DNA from: Ammoniphilus oxalaticus | Lineage (GTDB): Bacteria > Bacillota > Bacilli > Aneurinibacillales > RAOX-1 | DNA: 64,000 nucleotides | Assembly (NCBI RefSeq): GCF_003609605.1 | Contig: NZ_MCHY01000009.1 | Span: 365,058 to 429,057 of the forward strand | Reading direction: 5' to 3' | In this document: piece after piece, positions 14,467 to 21,896 of the stretch | Position numbering within the stretch: the stretch's first letter is position 1 | Layout: each line of letters starts with the position of its first letter | Notes under the pieces: model-generated | The model's database searches: none | What the model was told of the DNA's origin: nothing | What the model saw: the letters and a program-made list of their open reading frames with translations, nothing else | Translations under genes and position numbers: made by a program

Positions 14467-15012
14467 GTGAAAGGGAAACTAGCAACGATCGTAGTAGTGT
14501 TCGCGATGTCCATCCTATCTGTAGCTTGCGGCAATACGAATTCAAATGAGGAGCAAACAGGTCAGCAAGTGGATGCAGTTTTAATTAAGCAACTAGTCCA
14601 TGACTATAGTGTTGAAGATTTTAAAGGCGAAGTTCAAGCATCGATTACATCAGATGAACTCATTGTTACGAACAATAATGGCGATAAAGAAATCTATCAG
14701 CTGCCTGAAGAAGAATTTTTCGTTTCCATCGCTCCGTATATTGAGCAAACTCATCCTTGAACAAACCATAGCTTGACAGGTTGTCAAGGAGAACTCGTTG
14801 CGGAGAAATTTGACGTGCAAATTCATGACGAACAAGGCCGTCCGATTATCGATACGATGATCGCGACGGAAGCAAATGGATTCTTTGATCTATGGTTGCC
14901 GCGTAATCAAACGTATCAAGTGAAAATTCAGCAAGGAGACAAAGTTGCCGAAGCAAAGCTTGCAACTTTCAAAGATGATCCGACCTGCATCACGACGATG
15001 CAACTGCAGTAA
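14467..15012 (+). CDS. cueP: CueP copper-binding lipoprotein with in-frame TGA (candidate selenocysteine)
   Basis: Read through one TGA (14758-14760), this is a full-length 181-residue CueP: signal and lipobox LSVAC (Cys21), ITSDELIV, LPEEEFFVSIAPYIEQTHP, then residue 98 (TGA), TNHSLTGCQGEL (Cys106), and DPTCITTMQL (Cys174). Salmonella CueP has three conserved copper-linked cysteines at 96, 104 and 172. The spacing here (98, 106, 174) is identical, so the TGA replaces the first. Starting 12 bases after the TGA is CTTGACA-GGT-TGTCAAG, a perfect 7-pair stem. Its GGT is at bases 19-21 after TGA, exactly where GGU stands in the E. coli fdhF SECIS. The frame beyond is intact to a normal stop and terminator. 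Selenocysteine insertion is my preferred reading; a point-mutated pseudogene or a base error remain possible. The start is GTG behind AAGGCGGTGAACGAAA. Confidence 0.75.
14761..14788 (+). promoter_or_regulatory. SECIS-like hairpin after the cueP TGA
   Basis: The stem is CTTGACA (14772-14778) with TGTCAAG (14782-14788) around GGT (14779-14781). Opening the top pair gives an AGGTT loop close to the AGGUCU loop of E. coli fdhF. The stem also encodes the conserved LTGCQ peptide, so codon choice alone could produce it by chance. Confidence 0.55.
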
Positions 15013-15036
15013 AAGCGCCAGACGGCGCTTTTTTTA
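15011..15036 (+). terminator. terminator of cueP
   Basis: The stem AAAAGCGCC / GGCGCTTTT is followed by a T-run, immediately after the cueP stop. Confidence 0.9.
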
Positions 15037-17804: not shown

Positions 17805-18764
17805 ATGATGTTGAAAACAAAAATGATCATGCTGTGTTGGTTATTTGCAATTATTATTTCTGGTTGTTCAAGTCAAACGGTCAGCACGGAAGTAAAAACC
17901 GATCAAAATGGGGGAGTCATGATTACTGACCATGCCGAACGGACAGTGAAATTTAATGAGCCGCCTGAACGGATCGTTTCGCTTGCGCAAGGAGATTTGG
18001 AGATCGTATATCAACTTGGAGGAAATATTGTTGGACGTCCTACAGCGAGGATTCAACCGCTGAAAGAGTTAGCGGAAGTTGAACAAGTAGGAACCGCGCA
18101 CGACGTCGATTTCGAAAAGGTTGTAAGTCTGAAGCCAGACCTAGTCATTGGACATGCGGATTTAAATAGAAAGGATATTAGTACTGCGGAATCATTAGGG
18201 CTTAAGTTGTTTTTAACAAACGGAAATCAATTTGAACAAATTGTTGAGATGATTGATCAATACGGAACCATTTTGGAACGGAAAAATGAGGCGAGTCGTT
18301 TGATTGCTAACATTCAACAAAAAAGAGAGGCAATTGAGGCCGATCCGTTACCGAGGGAGATCAAGGCATTAATTGTTTATGGAACGACTGAATCATTTAT
18401 GGCTGCTTTACCGTCCTCGCTCTCAGGGAATTTACTCGATATCGCAGGCGGTCAAAATATTGCCGATGGGCTGCCAAAGGTTGAGCATTATCCAGATTAT
18501 GCCCAGCTTAGTATGGAGCACGTCATCGCAAAAGATCCCGATGTCATCTATTTCATCACACACGGTGAACCGGAAGCGGTGAAGGAAAAATTTGAACAAG
18601 AGCTTAGGGCCAATCCGGCATGGAGAGGTGTGAAAGCTTTTAAAAATGATCAGTTCATTTTCTTGCCATTTGAACTCTTTGGCTCAAGTCCCGGACCAAA
18701 GGTGGGAGAATCGCTTACATTCTTAAAAGAGAGCTTAGATCAAGTTGCGGTTAAAGGAGAGTAA
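17805..18764 (+). CDS. iron-complex/haem ABC transporter substrate-binding lipoprotein
   Basis: This 319-residue lipoprotein (signal ending IIISGCSS) has the two-lobe FecB/BtuF fold: RIVSLAQGDLEIVYQLGG near the start, VVSLKPDLVIGH in the first lobe, and DPDVIYFITHGEPEAV in the second. It opens a five-gene operon with a FecCD permease, an ATPase, a haem monooxygenase and a ferrochelatase-like enzyme. Haem or another tetrapyrrole is therefore the likely cargo, by context. The exact ligand residues cannot be read by eye. Confidence 0.88.
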   Translation: MMLKTKMIMLCWLFAIIISGCSSQTVSTEVKTDQNGGVMITDHAERTVKFNEPPERIVSLAQGDLEIVYQLGGNIVGRPTARIQPLKELAEVEQVGTAHDVDFEKVVSLKPDLVIGHADLNRKDISTAESLGLKLFLTNGNQFEQIVEMIDQYGTILERKNEASRLIANIQQKREAIEADPLPREIKALIVYGTTESFMAALPSSLSGNLLDIAGGQNIADGLPKVEHYPDYAQLSMEHVIAKDPDVIYFITHGEPEAVKEKFEQELRANPAWRGVKAFKNDQFIFLPFELFGSSPGPKVGESLTFLKESLDQVAVKGE

Positions 18765-18765
18765 T

Positions 18766-19806
18766 ATGGCGCAACGCGATAGTCAACTAACCATAACGCG
18801 AGTGGAAGACCCACGGCGTAAGAAGAGGATCGTTACGTTGCTTATTTTCTTGTTATTATGCAGTCTGTCGATCATTTACGGGATTATGGTCGGACCGGTC
18901 TCCATTCGACTCAGTGATATTTGGCAAGCATTTATTGCCTCGCCGAGTACGGTTGAAACGAGGATTGTGTGGGATCTACGGTTGCCTCGTTTGTTAACTG
19001 GCTTGTTGGTTGGTTCTTGTTTAGCTGTATCAGGGGCATTGTTACAAGGGGTCATGCGAAATCCGCTAGCGGATCCGGGAATTATTGGTGTATCCGCCGG
19101 CGCGGGGCTCGTCGCGGTGATTATGATGATTGTTTTCCCGGCATATACCCATTTAACTCCTTTTGGAGCGTTTATCGGAGCGTTGGCTGCTACATGTATG
19201 ATTTATTTCGTAGCTTGGAACGGCGGTGTGTCTCCACTGCGAATGATTTTAGCGGGAGTGGCAATTAACGCGTTGCTGGGGGCTTTAACTTCAACGGTCA
19301 TGATTTTATATAGCGATCGCGTTCAGGCTGTGCTTCCGTGGCTTGTTGGGGGTCTTGCGGGGAGGAGTTGGCCACATTTCTTTATCATCTTGCCCTATGC
19401 GGCGCTTGGATTGTTTCTATCCATTTTTGCGATCAAGCACGCCAATATTATGTTACTTGGGGATGAAGTGGCTCGGTTAGCGGGCAATAAAGTGGAGCGA
19501 AGCCGATTTTACCTCATTATTCTAGCGGCTTTGTTGGCGGGGGCAGCAGTAAGTGTAGCCGGATTAATTGGTTTTGTCGGACTGGTTGTGCCGCACTTTG
19601 TGCGATTAATCGTTGGCAATGACTACCGATATTTGTTGCCGATATCAGCAATTGCCGGCGCATTTTTAGTTGCGCTCGCGGATACTTCGGCAAGAAGTTG
19701 GTTTGATCCAATTGAACTTCCCGTTGGAATTTTATTAGCGGTCATTGGGGCGCCATTTTTTCTGTACTTATTGAGAGGAGGAAAACAGGGGTGGAAGATG
19801 TCTTAG
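18766..19806 (+). CDS. FecCD-type ABC permease
   Basis: This 346-residue permease has about ten membrane helices and the family motifs LRLPRLLTGLLVGSCLAVSG (about 66-85), MRNPLADPGIIGVSAGAGL and GLIGFVGLVVPHFVR. Unusually for the family it begins with a 25-residue charged cytoplasmic extension. The ATG at 18766 lies one base after the upstream stop, behind AAAGGAGAG. It overlaps the ATPase gene by 16 bases, indicating tight translational coupling. Confidence 0.93.
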   Translation: MAQRDSQLTITRVEDPRRKKRIVTLLIFLLLCSLSIIYGIMVGPVSIRLSDIWQAFIASPSTVETRIVWDLRLPRLLTGLLVGSCLAVSGALLQGVMRNPLADPGIIGVSAGAGLVAVIMMIVFPAYTHLTPFGAFIGALAATCMIYFVAWNGGVSPLRMILAGVAINALLGALTSTVMILYSDRVQAVLPWLVGGLAGRSWPHFFIILPYAALGLFLSIFAIKHANIMLLGDEVARLAGNKVERSRFYLIILAALLAGAAVSVAGLIGFVGLVVPHFVRLIVGNDYRYLLPISAIAGAFLVALADTSARSWFDPIELPVGILLAVIGAPFFLYLLRGGKQGWKMS

Positions 19807-20588
19807 TCGCAAACGATCTATCTTATCGGTATACGGATTCATATTGTATTAAAGACTTTTCCCTATCCATTCAAAAAGGGGAAATTGTAAGTATCGTCGG
19901 TTCAAACGGGTCAGGGAAATCAACCGTGTTACGTTTGCTCACCCGGCTTTTAAAGACAGAGAGCGGCGCTATTCTATTGGAAGGCCAGTCGATTAACCAA
20001 TTAACGGATAAACAATTTGCCAAGAAGATGACAATGTTGCCGCAAGTGTTAAATCATCAAGTGGAAATGACGGTGAGAGATTTAGTGTCGCATGGTCGTA
20101 ACCCGTATTTAAAGTGGTATGAGGTGGTTGATAACCAAACGAATTATATCGATTGGGCGTTATCGGTCACCCACTTAACGGCGCTGCAACATCGACCATT
20201 ATACGCATTGTCGGGCGGTGAGCGGCAACGGGCTTGGATTGCGATGTCAATTGCTCAAACGCCAAAGGTTTTAATTCTAGATGAACCGACTAGTTATTTA
20301 GACATCTCGCATCAGCTAGAAATTATGGAATTATTAAAAGAACTAAACGATTCTCTGGGGATGACTATTATTATGGTGCTGCATGACCTCAATCAAGCGG
20401 CTAGATACAGCGATCGAATCATTGCAATGAAAAATGGAAAGGTGGTGAGGCAAGGAAAACCTTGTGAGGTGTATGATCATGATTTTTTCGAAGAAGTTTT
20501 TTCTATAAAAGCTTCCATTCATTTCGACGGGGATAAACCGGTTTGCACCCCGATTGGATTAGCGCAAAGTCAACAAAAGAAAAATTAA
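19791..20588 (+). CDS. iron-complex/haem ABC transporter ATPase
   Basis: This 265-residue ATPase of the FepC/FhuC class has Walker A GSNGSGKST (about 37), Q-loop near MLPQ, signature LSGGERQRAW (about 141), Walker B VLILDEPTSYLDI and H-loop VLHDLNQAARY. It begins at a GTG inside the end of the permease gene, preceded by GAGAGGAGG. It is followed 14 bases later by the haem-monooxygenase gene. Confidence 0.93.
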   Translation: MEDVLVANDLSYRYTDSYCIKDFSLSIQKGEIVSIVGSNGSGKSTVLRLLTRLLKTESGAILLEGQSINQLTDKQFAKKMTMLPQVLNHQVEMTVRDLVSHGRNPYLKWYEVVDNQTNYIDWALSVTHLTALQHRPLYALSGGERQRAWIAMSIAQTPKVLILDEPTSYLDISHQLEIMELLKELNDSLGMTIIMVLHDLNQAARYSDRIIAMKNGKVVRQGKPCEVYDHDFFEEVFSIKASIHFDGDKPVCTPIGLAQSQQKKN

Positions 20589-20602
20589 ATGGAGTGATTA
20601 AG

Positions 20603-20932
20603 ATGTTTGTAATTTCTAATACGTTGAAAATAAAAAAGGGTTTTGAAGATCAATTTCTGGCTCGGTTCGAAATGTTAGGAAAGATTGAAGAATCACCTGG
20701 GTTCCTCATGTTAAATGTGCTGAAAACGAGAATGGAAGAAGAGTACGATGAGTTTACAATTTGGACAAAATGGCAATCAAGAGAAGCCCATGATGAATGG
20801 TCTAAGTCAGAATCTTTCCGTAAATCTCATGGAGGCGGCCGTTCTGAATATATTCTTGATTTTAAACTCGGGTTCTATGACGTTGTGTTAGAGAAATTAT
20901 CCGCGACCAAAGTTGTAAAAGATGTTAGCTAA
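20603..20932 (+). CDS. hmoA: IsdG/HmoA-type haem-degrading monooxygenase
   Basis: This 109-residue ABM-fold enzyme shows the IsdG catalytic triad at matching positions: Asn6 (VISNTL), Trp66 (AHDEWSK) and His76 (RKSHGG), against N7/W67/H77 in IsdG. It would open the haem ring and free iron in the cytoplasm. I chose the ATG at 20603 because GGAGTGATTAAG precedes it. It ends within a few bases of the ferrochelatase-like gene in the same operon, fitting a role right after haem import. Confidence 0.9.
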   Translation: MFVISNTLKIKKGFEDQFLARFEMLGKIEESPGFLMLNVLKTRMEEEYDEFTIWTKWQSREAHDEWSKSESFRKSHGGGRSEYILDFKLGFYDVVLEKLSATKVVKDVS

Positions 20933-20945
20933 AGGGGAAAACGCG

Positions 20946-21896
20946 ATGATTGGAATCATTTTGATGTCATATGGCGGACCTGAGCGGATCGATCAGGTTG
21001 AATCTTTTTTCACACAACTTCTGCAAGGCAGAAAACCGTCCGCCGAACAGGTTGAAGCGCTAACAAATCAATTTCGATCGCTTGGGACCGTGGATCCATT
21101 GCGGATGTACACGGAACGTCAAGCGCATATGCTGCAACAAGTATTACACAGAAATGGCGTTGCGAATGTAAAGGTGTATTTCGCTTACAAAAATGGAACG
21201 CCATTTATTGGAGAAACCATTGGAAGAATGTTAAAGGATAAAGTGAGCCAGATTGTTACCCTGCCTTTGAACCCATTTTACTCAAAGACAGGGGTCGGTT
21301 CTTACCAACGGGAAGTGGAAACTGAGCTGGAAAAGGCGAAAGCATCCACTCCAGTTTTTCATATCGAACGATGGTATCAACATGAGGGTTATGAGGAAGT
21401 GATGGTTAGACGGGTAAGTGAAGCATTGCAATGGTTGCCCCAAACAAGTTCGAGTAAACGGGCAACCATCGTGTTTACAACACATAGTTTACCTGGTTCA
21501 TCTGAACAGCATCAAGCGTACATAACTCAGTTATCAGAGTTAGCTCAACAAATCGCTAATAAATTGAATGTTCAAAATTGGCGAATGGCTTACCGCAGCG
21601 CAAGGCAAAAGCAAGGATGGCTAGGACCTGATATTAAGGATGTCATCTTTGAAGAAGCAACAAATGGACAAAATGGGCTTGTAGTTTGCGACCTTCTTTC
21701 TGTTTCAGAAAATGTAGAAGTGTTGCAAGAATTAAGAACGGAATGTCAAGAACACGCGAAAGATGCGGGGATTGAGTATGTCTGCGCCGATTTCCCCAAT
21801 GATTCAGCCGATTTTATGTTTGCTTTGGCGGATATTGTTGAAGCCAAATTGAAATTAATAGGGAGCCTCAAGGACCCGCAAAAGGTTGGAAAATAG
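20946..21896 (+). CDS. hemH: ferrochelatase-like protein in the haem-uptake operon
   Basis: This 316-residue class II chelatase begins MIGIILMSYGGPERIDQVESFF and has the conserved histidine region FTTHSLPGSSEQH (His about 180) and an acidic partner in SVSENVEVLQEL (about 259), where B. subtilis HemH has a Glu. Monoderm bacteria use it to insert iron into coproporphyrin III. Its position after a haem importer and haem monooxygenase, away from hemE/hemY, suggests a specialised paralogue, perhaps acting on imported porphyrin. Removal of iron in reverse is possible but unproven. The start follows AAAGGGGAAAACGCG. Confidence 0.85.
   Translation: MIGIILMSYGGPERIDQVESFFTQLLQGRKPSAEQVEALTNQFRSLGTVDPLRMYTERQAHMLQQVLHRNGVANVKVYFAYKNGTPFIGETIGRMLKDKVSQIVTLPLNPFYSKTGVGSYQREVETELEKAKASTPVFHIERWYQHEGYEEVMVRRVSEALQWLPQTSSSKRATIVFTTHSLPGSSEQHQAYITQLSELAQQIANKLNVQNWRMAYRSARQKQGWLGPDIKDVIFEEATNGQNGLVVCDLLSVSENVEVLQELRTECQEHAKDAGIEYVCADFPNDSADFMFALADIVEAKLKLIGSLKDPQKVGK

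Follow-up and report, generated by a model that had tools for sequence, protein, structure and literature searches.

The cueP locus

The window, a 64,000-nucleotide (64-kb) stretch of contig NZ_MCHY01000009.1 of Ammoniphilus oxalaticus, encodes a single 181-aa CueP frame whose sole interruption is a TGA at codon 98 (Table 1). Two family models cross the TGA, Pfam PF21172 (residues 53-179, E 8.4e-43, 145.8 bits against a cut-off of 27) and NCBIfam NF038094 (residues 40-180, E 1.4e-54, 183.8 bits against a cut-off of 60). Both matches are domain-wide and exceed the curated cut-offs, placing the product in the CueP family. Alignment with Salmonella CueP (PDB 4gqz) has no gap across residues 98-174, so that positions 98, 106 and 174 are spaced exactly as Salmonella Cys96, Cys104 and Cys172. 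The conserved set found in the motif THPCxxHxLxGC and at the C-terminus is present: two histidines and three cysteine positions, one of them the putative selenocysteine (Sec). An AlphaFold model (pLDDT 83) has the CueP fold, with 4gqz as its best PDB match (E 3e-14; TM 0.70-0.72 by query length, rmsd 2.0-2.9). These results bear out a sequence-only reading of the same DNA, which had described a full-length CueP frame broken only at codon 98, the Salmonella-like cysteine spacing, and an intact frame past the TGA that keeps the conserved cysteines and ends in a normal TAA stop and a terminator.

Table 1. Features of the cueP locus and other genes with in-frame TGA codons. Positions refer to the window except where prefixed by a contig label.
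Feature	Location	Strand	Description
cueP (putative Sec-containing CueP)	14467..15012	+	181 aa, GTG start, TAA stop
Putative Sec-UGA, codon 98	14758..14760	+	column of first CueP cysteine (Salmonella Cys96)
Putative bacterial SECIS stem-loop CTTGACA-GGT-TGTCAAG	14772..14788	+	7 bp, 3-nt GGT loop, loop start 18 nt after UGA
Cys106 codon (Salmonella Cys104)	14782..14784	+	column invariant in 134 genes
Cys174 codon (Salmonella Cys172)	14986..14988	+	aligned column
Intrinsic-terminator-like hairpin with T tail	15011..15032	+	after TAA stop of cueP
Iron/haem-type uptake cluster	17805..21896		substrate-binding protein, permease, ATPase, ABM monooxygenase, ferrochelatase
SelD	C9:181052-181981		in-frame TGA within AGUGCK site
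FdhA (formate dehydrogenase alpha)	C11:121322-123331		in-frame TGA in site UHAP
FdhA (formate dehydrogenase alpha)	C9:617821-619827		in-frame TGA in site UHAP

TGA is the ordinary stop of 7 of the 49 long frames in the window; because it is used as a normal stop in this genome, the genetic code is not recoded. The CueP product is probably exported as a lipoprotein, judging by eye from a hydrophobic N-terminal stretch that ends in ...ILSVAC and from the clear LxGC lipobox of many homologues. A simple scan upstream of cueP found no sigma-70 promoter. Among the neighbours of cueP in genomes with the Sec form we saw no consistent copper partner; the gene stands alone, and its copper role is therefore taken from the family and not from its genomic surroundings. 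Plasmid-borne CueP genes (Staphylococcus, Exiguobacterium, Shewanella) are part of copper-resistance clusters, where they adjoin copper ATPases, multicopper oxidases or Cop genes. A Cys-type CueP frame (L164:5830-6369) carried by the S. equorum plasmid pKS1030-2 lies beside a copper P-type ATPase; this frame is broken near its start and is absent from the PLSDB gene table. Downstream of cueP, the window also holds an iron/haem-type uptake cluster.

TGA and cysteine codons in related CueP genes

An initial contig scan recovered 13 near relatives, 10 with TGA and 3 with Cys (L018, L021, L023) at the codon. With family searches in the class and order of Cytobacillus, the set came to 142 loci, 135 of them unique; sampling covered Bacilli/Bacillota genomes plus plasmids. 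The 135 unique Bacilli genes comprise 53 with TGA, 81 with TGT or TGC, and one decayed copy with TAC. CueP is an external copper-handling protein of many soil bacteria. Its TGA-containing form occurs in dozens of Bacillus-like species, and a Bacillota-wide draw, which yielded only 9 genomes with CueP, added no further TGA lineage.

The frame after the TGA is intact over 83-91 codons in every TGA gene, and its dN/dS, from pairs of moderate divergence, has a median of 0.16 and a maximum of 0.40. This indicates that the protein past the TGA is made and is under purifying selection. Residues H96, C/U98, H101 and C106 are invariant in 134 CueP genes. C174 is found by pattern in 131 of the 134; of the remaining three genes, one is a truncated copy and two read C-M-T at that position. 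Where the codon is not TGA, column 98 is Cys and never Trp.

Several genomes carry two copies. Both are of the Sec type in G439 (L111, L123) and G569 (L112, L137), and there is one of each type in G443 (L071, L116). The second copy in G573, a genome with no SelB, is the decayed one (L135), with several stops, TAC in place of the Sec codon and TGA in place of the following cysteine codon. Two source labels appear doubtful: the CueP of L015, labelled Pseudomonas sp. ISL-84, groups within Cytobacillus, and L020, from a Lysinibacillus MAG, shares 99.6% identity with C. oceanisediminis and is probably misbinned.

A SECIS-like stem-loop after codon 98

As the sequence-only reading had noted, a stem of seven pairs follows codon 98, with a GGT loop at bases 19-21 after the TGA. 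With 18 nt between UGA and loop, the element agrees with the published bSECIS model, in which a small apical loop opens with G and lies 16-37 nt after the UGA (PMC13188914). By chance, 0.025 occurrences of a TGA followed at this offset by the same loop and seven pairs are expected per 64 kb (both strands); one was found in the window, at cueP. An Rfam scan of the stem gave no match, only a chance hit to RT-6 (E 5.9).

The element is found with the TGA. All seven pairs form in 52 of the 53 unique TGA genes, and the GGT loop is in all 53. Among the 81 Cys genes, the seven pairs form in 2, GGT is present in 25, and the two coincide in one (L156). Stem codons hardly vary among TGA genes (ACA 52/53, GGT 53/53, TGT 52/53); the same codons are free in Cys genes (ACT 28, ACA 25, ACC 23; GGT 25, GGC 24, GGA 20, GGG 8). 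Under the codon usage of the Cys genes, a full stem with GGT is expected in 2.4% of genes.

Double changes occur at two stem pairs within the TGA genes (covariation in 9 cells). One pair passes from T-A to C-G through the synonymous exchange of TTG/CAA for CTG/CAG, with one intermediate in L027; another passes from A-T to G-C in L066. The covariation score was reached by none of 500 shuffles (24 distinct sequences). Slid registers lose pairing, and the +1 register has a similar covariation score with only 43% of cells paired. The comparison of relatives proposed in the sequence-only reading thus yields 52 other unique CueP genes with TGA at the codon, in which the stem is kept by compensating changes and there is no decay.

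Selenocysteine machinery and its co-occurrence with TGA

The genome encodes tRNA-Sec (selC; ARAGORN SeC, anticodon TCA), an adjoining selB (637 aa), and selA and selD, which makes up the full set that the earlier reading had suggested searching for. SelD and 2 of the 4 formate dehydrogenase alpha genes contain in-frame TGA codons, so that, cueP included, there are at least four selenoprotein genes. Both TGA-containing FdhA genes have a stem with GGT at bases 19-21 after the TGA, an offset identical to that of cueP. The SelD SECIS was folded and has a loop that differs from the cueP loop; it is left out of the argument. Together, the machinery and the TGA-containing SelD and FdhA indicate that the cell makes use of Sec and does so through an element of the type seen at cueP.

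SelB is present in 52 of 53 TGA-CueP genomes versus 17 of 63 Cys-only genomes (Fisher p 9e-17, uncorrected for relatedness); the TGA count includes G621, which has a fragmentary CueP without a codon-level reading. The lone TGA genome without SelB, G408, is a MAG, and its contig matches Cytobacillus oceanisediminis at 99.6% identity; misbinning or incompleteness is the likely cause.

Sec and Cys forms can occur in close relatives. Robertmurraya kyonggiensis has the TGA and the full stem-loop element; R. yapensis retains SelB but has a TGT codon and a GGC loop and has lost the top stem pair. Their CueP proteins are sisters with 100% support. In G750, a genome without SelB, L156 combines a TGC codon with a complete stem and GGT loop, likely a relic of recent Sec loss after the machinery was lost. 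Parsimony places at least 15 Sec/Cys changes on the CueP tree, of which only 2 are forced by starred branches. With 26 of 127 branches starred, resolution of the tree is poor, which makes the number and direction of the switches uncertain. An independent-contrast test on the tree found 2 fully independent supported contrasts, too few for significance.

Explanations for the in-frame TGA

We consider it very probable, on the sequence data above, that this gene specifies a CueP selenoprotein. Sec insertion is inferred from the UGA at the Cys column, the conserved downstream frame, the conservation and covariation of the SECIS element, and the Sec machinery and its co-occurrence with the TGA. The gene could instead be a pseudogene created by a recent nonsense mutation, or the TGA a miscalled TGC or TGT. 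TGA is a single base from the Cys codons, and decayed CueP copies do exist, as in G573. However, the same TGA recurs in 53 unique genes, drawn from dozens of genomes that were sequenced separately and thus stand in for resequencing, the frame beyond it is intact (83-91 codons) with a dN/dS of 0.16, and the truly decayed L135 looks different, with its several stops and no SelB in the genome. The comparative data refute this explanation, and its probability is close to nil.

Stems just 3' of stop codons can in general stimulate readthrough, and the cueP stem occupies that position. It might then be a stimulator and not a SECIS element, with the UGA read by near-cognate Trp suppression, under a reassigned code or by regulated readthrough. 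Such a route seems very improbable given that the column is Cys, never Trp, in genes without TGA, that TGA serves this genome as a regular stop, that TGA genes track SelB, and that the GGT loop and its offset match those of FdhA in the same genome. The stem also overlaps the conserved coding segment (S/N)LTGCQ and could be a by-product of codon choice, a caveat raised in the sequence-only reading. Yet the 81 Cys genes, whose peptide is nearly the same, vary freely in their synonymous codons, and both features appear in one of them against 52 of 53 TGA genes. The latter frequency far exceeds the 2.4% of the codon-usage null, and the TGA genes contain compensatory synonymous pairs. The caveat is excluded on these grounds, and we assign it almost no probability.

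Predicted function of Sec98

For a CueP selenoprotein, SelB with Sec-tRNA(Sec) would bind the stem-loop directly 3' of UGA-98, and Sec would be inserted where other CueP proteins have the first copper-site cysteine. Translation would then run on to the normal stop, and the product would be exported and probably lipid-anchored on the outward-facing side of the membrane. Copper may be handled via the invariant cluster His96, Sec98, His101, Cys106 and Cys174, where the selenolate most likely would both ligate Cu(I) and speed the reduction and recycling of a Sec/Cys pair after oxidation by Cu(II) or peroxide.

In Salmonella CueP, the conserved Cys and His residues that cluster on a single face of the C-terminal domain form the copper site (PMC7558416), and a C104S mutant loses copper protection (PMC13201067). 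CueP is proposed as a copper donor to SodC, as a Cu(I) acceptor from ScsB/ScsC, and as a protectant against Cu(II)/H2O2 (PMC13201067, PMC9181168). The suggestion in the sequence-only reading that selenocysteine would be a softer copper ligand or a more reactive partner in the disulphide chemistry of CueP is plausible. Sec98 would most likely combine copper ligation with redox activity; we put the ligand step itself at about an even chance. We are evenly divided on the wider proposal that Sec98 is a direct Cu(I) ligand in an extracytoplasmic protein, kept in SelB-bearing Bacilli and, on several occasions, swapped with Cys as SelB or the supply of selenium varies. Alternatively, Sec98 could be purely redox active, a Sec/Cys couple that reduces Cu(II) or peroxide and binds no copper. 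In most known selenoproteins, Sec is believed to serve redox chemistry (PMC13188914), and Salmonella CueP is reported to protect against Cu(II)/H2O2 and to cooperate with the Scs disulfide reductase system (cited in PMC9181168). The Cys/Sec column nevertheless falls within the invariant His/Cys cluster that has been described as the copper-binding site (PMC7558416), and we rate the purely redox role as a real possibility that falls somewhat short of even.

Significance and comparison with known systems

The sequence-only reading had known of no described CueP selenoprotein. CueP is absent from the 119 prokaryotic selenoprotein families of a 2026 review (PMC13188914), the only NCBIfam models that match the protein are generic CueP ones, and the main text of the deep-Sep paper mentions neither copper nor Bacilli (PMC12013277). 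A full-text literature search for CueP with selenocysteine or selenoprotein returned a single paper, on an unrelated subject; live RefSeq, supplements, preprints and papers behind a paywall lay outside its scope, and an unreported annotation may exist. A CueP selenoprotein would add a family to the prokaryotic list beyond the usual anaerobic redox enzymes, namely an exported copper protein, and would link selenium supply with copper handling. The gene is probably annotated in many Bacilli as a truncated 97-aa product or a pseudogene. Near relatives such as those in Robertmurraya offer natural Sec/Cys pairs for asking why Sec is used, and the protein could serve as a small model for Cu-Se chemistry.

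The protein resembles Salmonella CueP (4gqz) in family, fold, THPCxxHxLxGC motif and the gap-free alignment of His96, His101 and the Cys98/106/174 columns. The Salmonella protein is soluble and periplasmic and has Cys at the first of these cysteine positions, whereas here that position has a UGA and a putative SECIS element, in a putative Gram-positive lipoprotein. A close parallel for the element is in the FdhA genes of the same genome (C11:121322, C9:617821), where a stem with a GGT loop likewise comes after the UGA and places GGT at bases 19-21, and one SelB would serve both. FdhA is an unrelated protein, a molybdopterin enzyme, with a 6-bp stem (GTCACC-GGTCT-GGTGAC). Listed selenoproteins linked to metals, including the Cu/Zn efflux transporter SO_0444, a CopZ-like 2Fe-2S protein, a putative mercuric transport protein and MbdU, likewise have Sec in place of Cys (PMC13188914). 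These belong to different families, and none is an exported copper protein of the CueP type.
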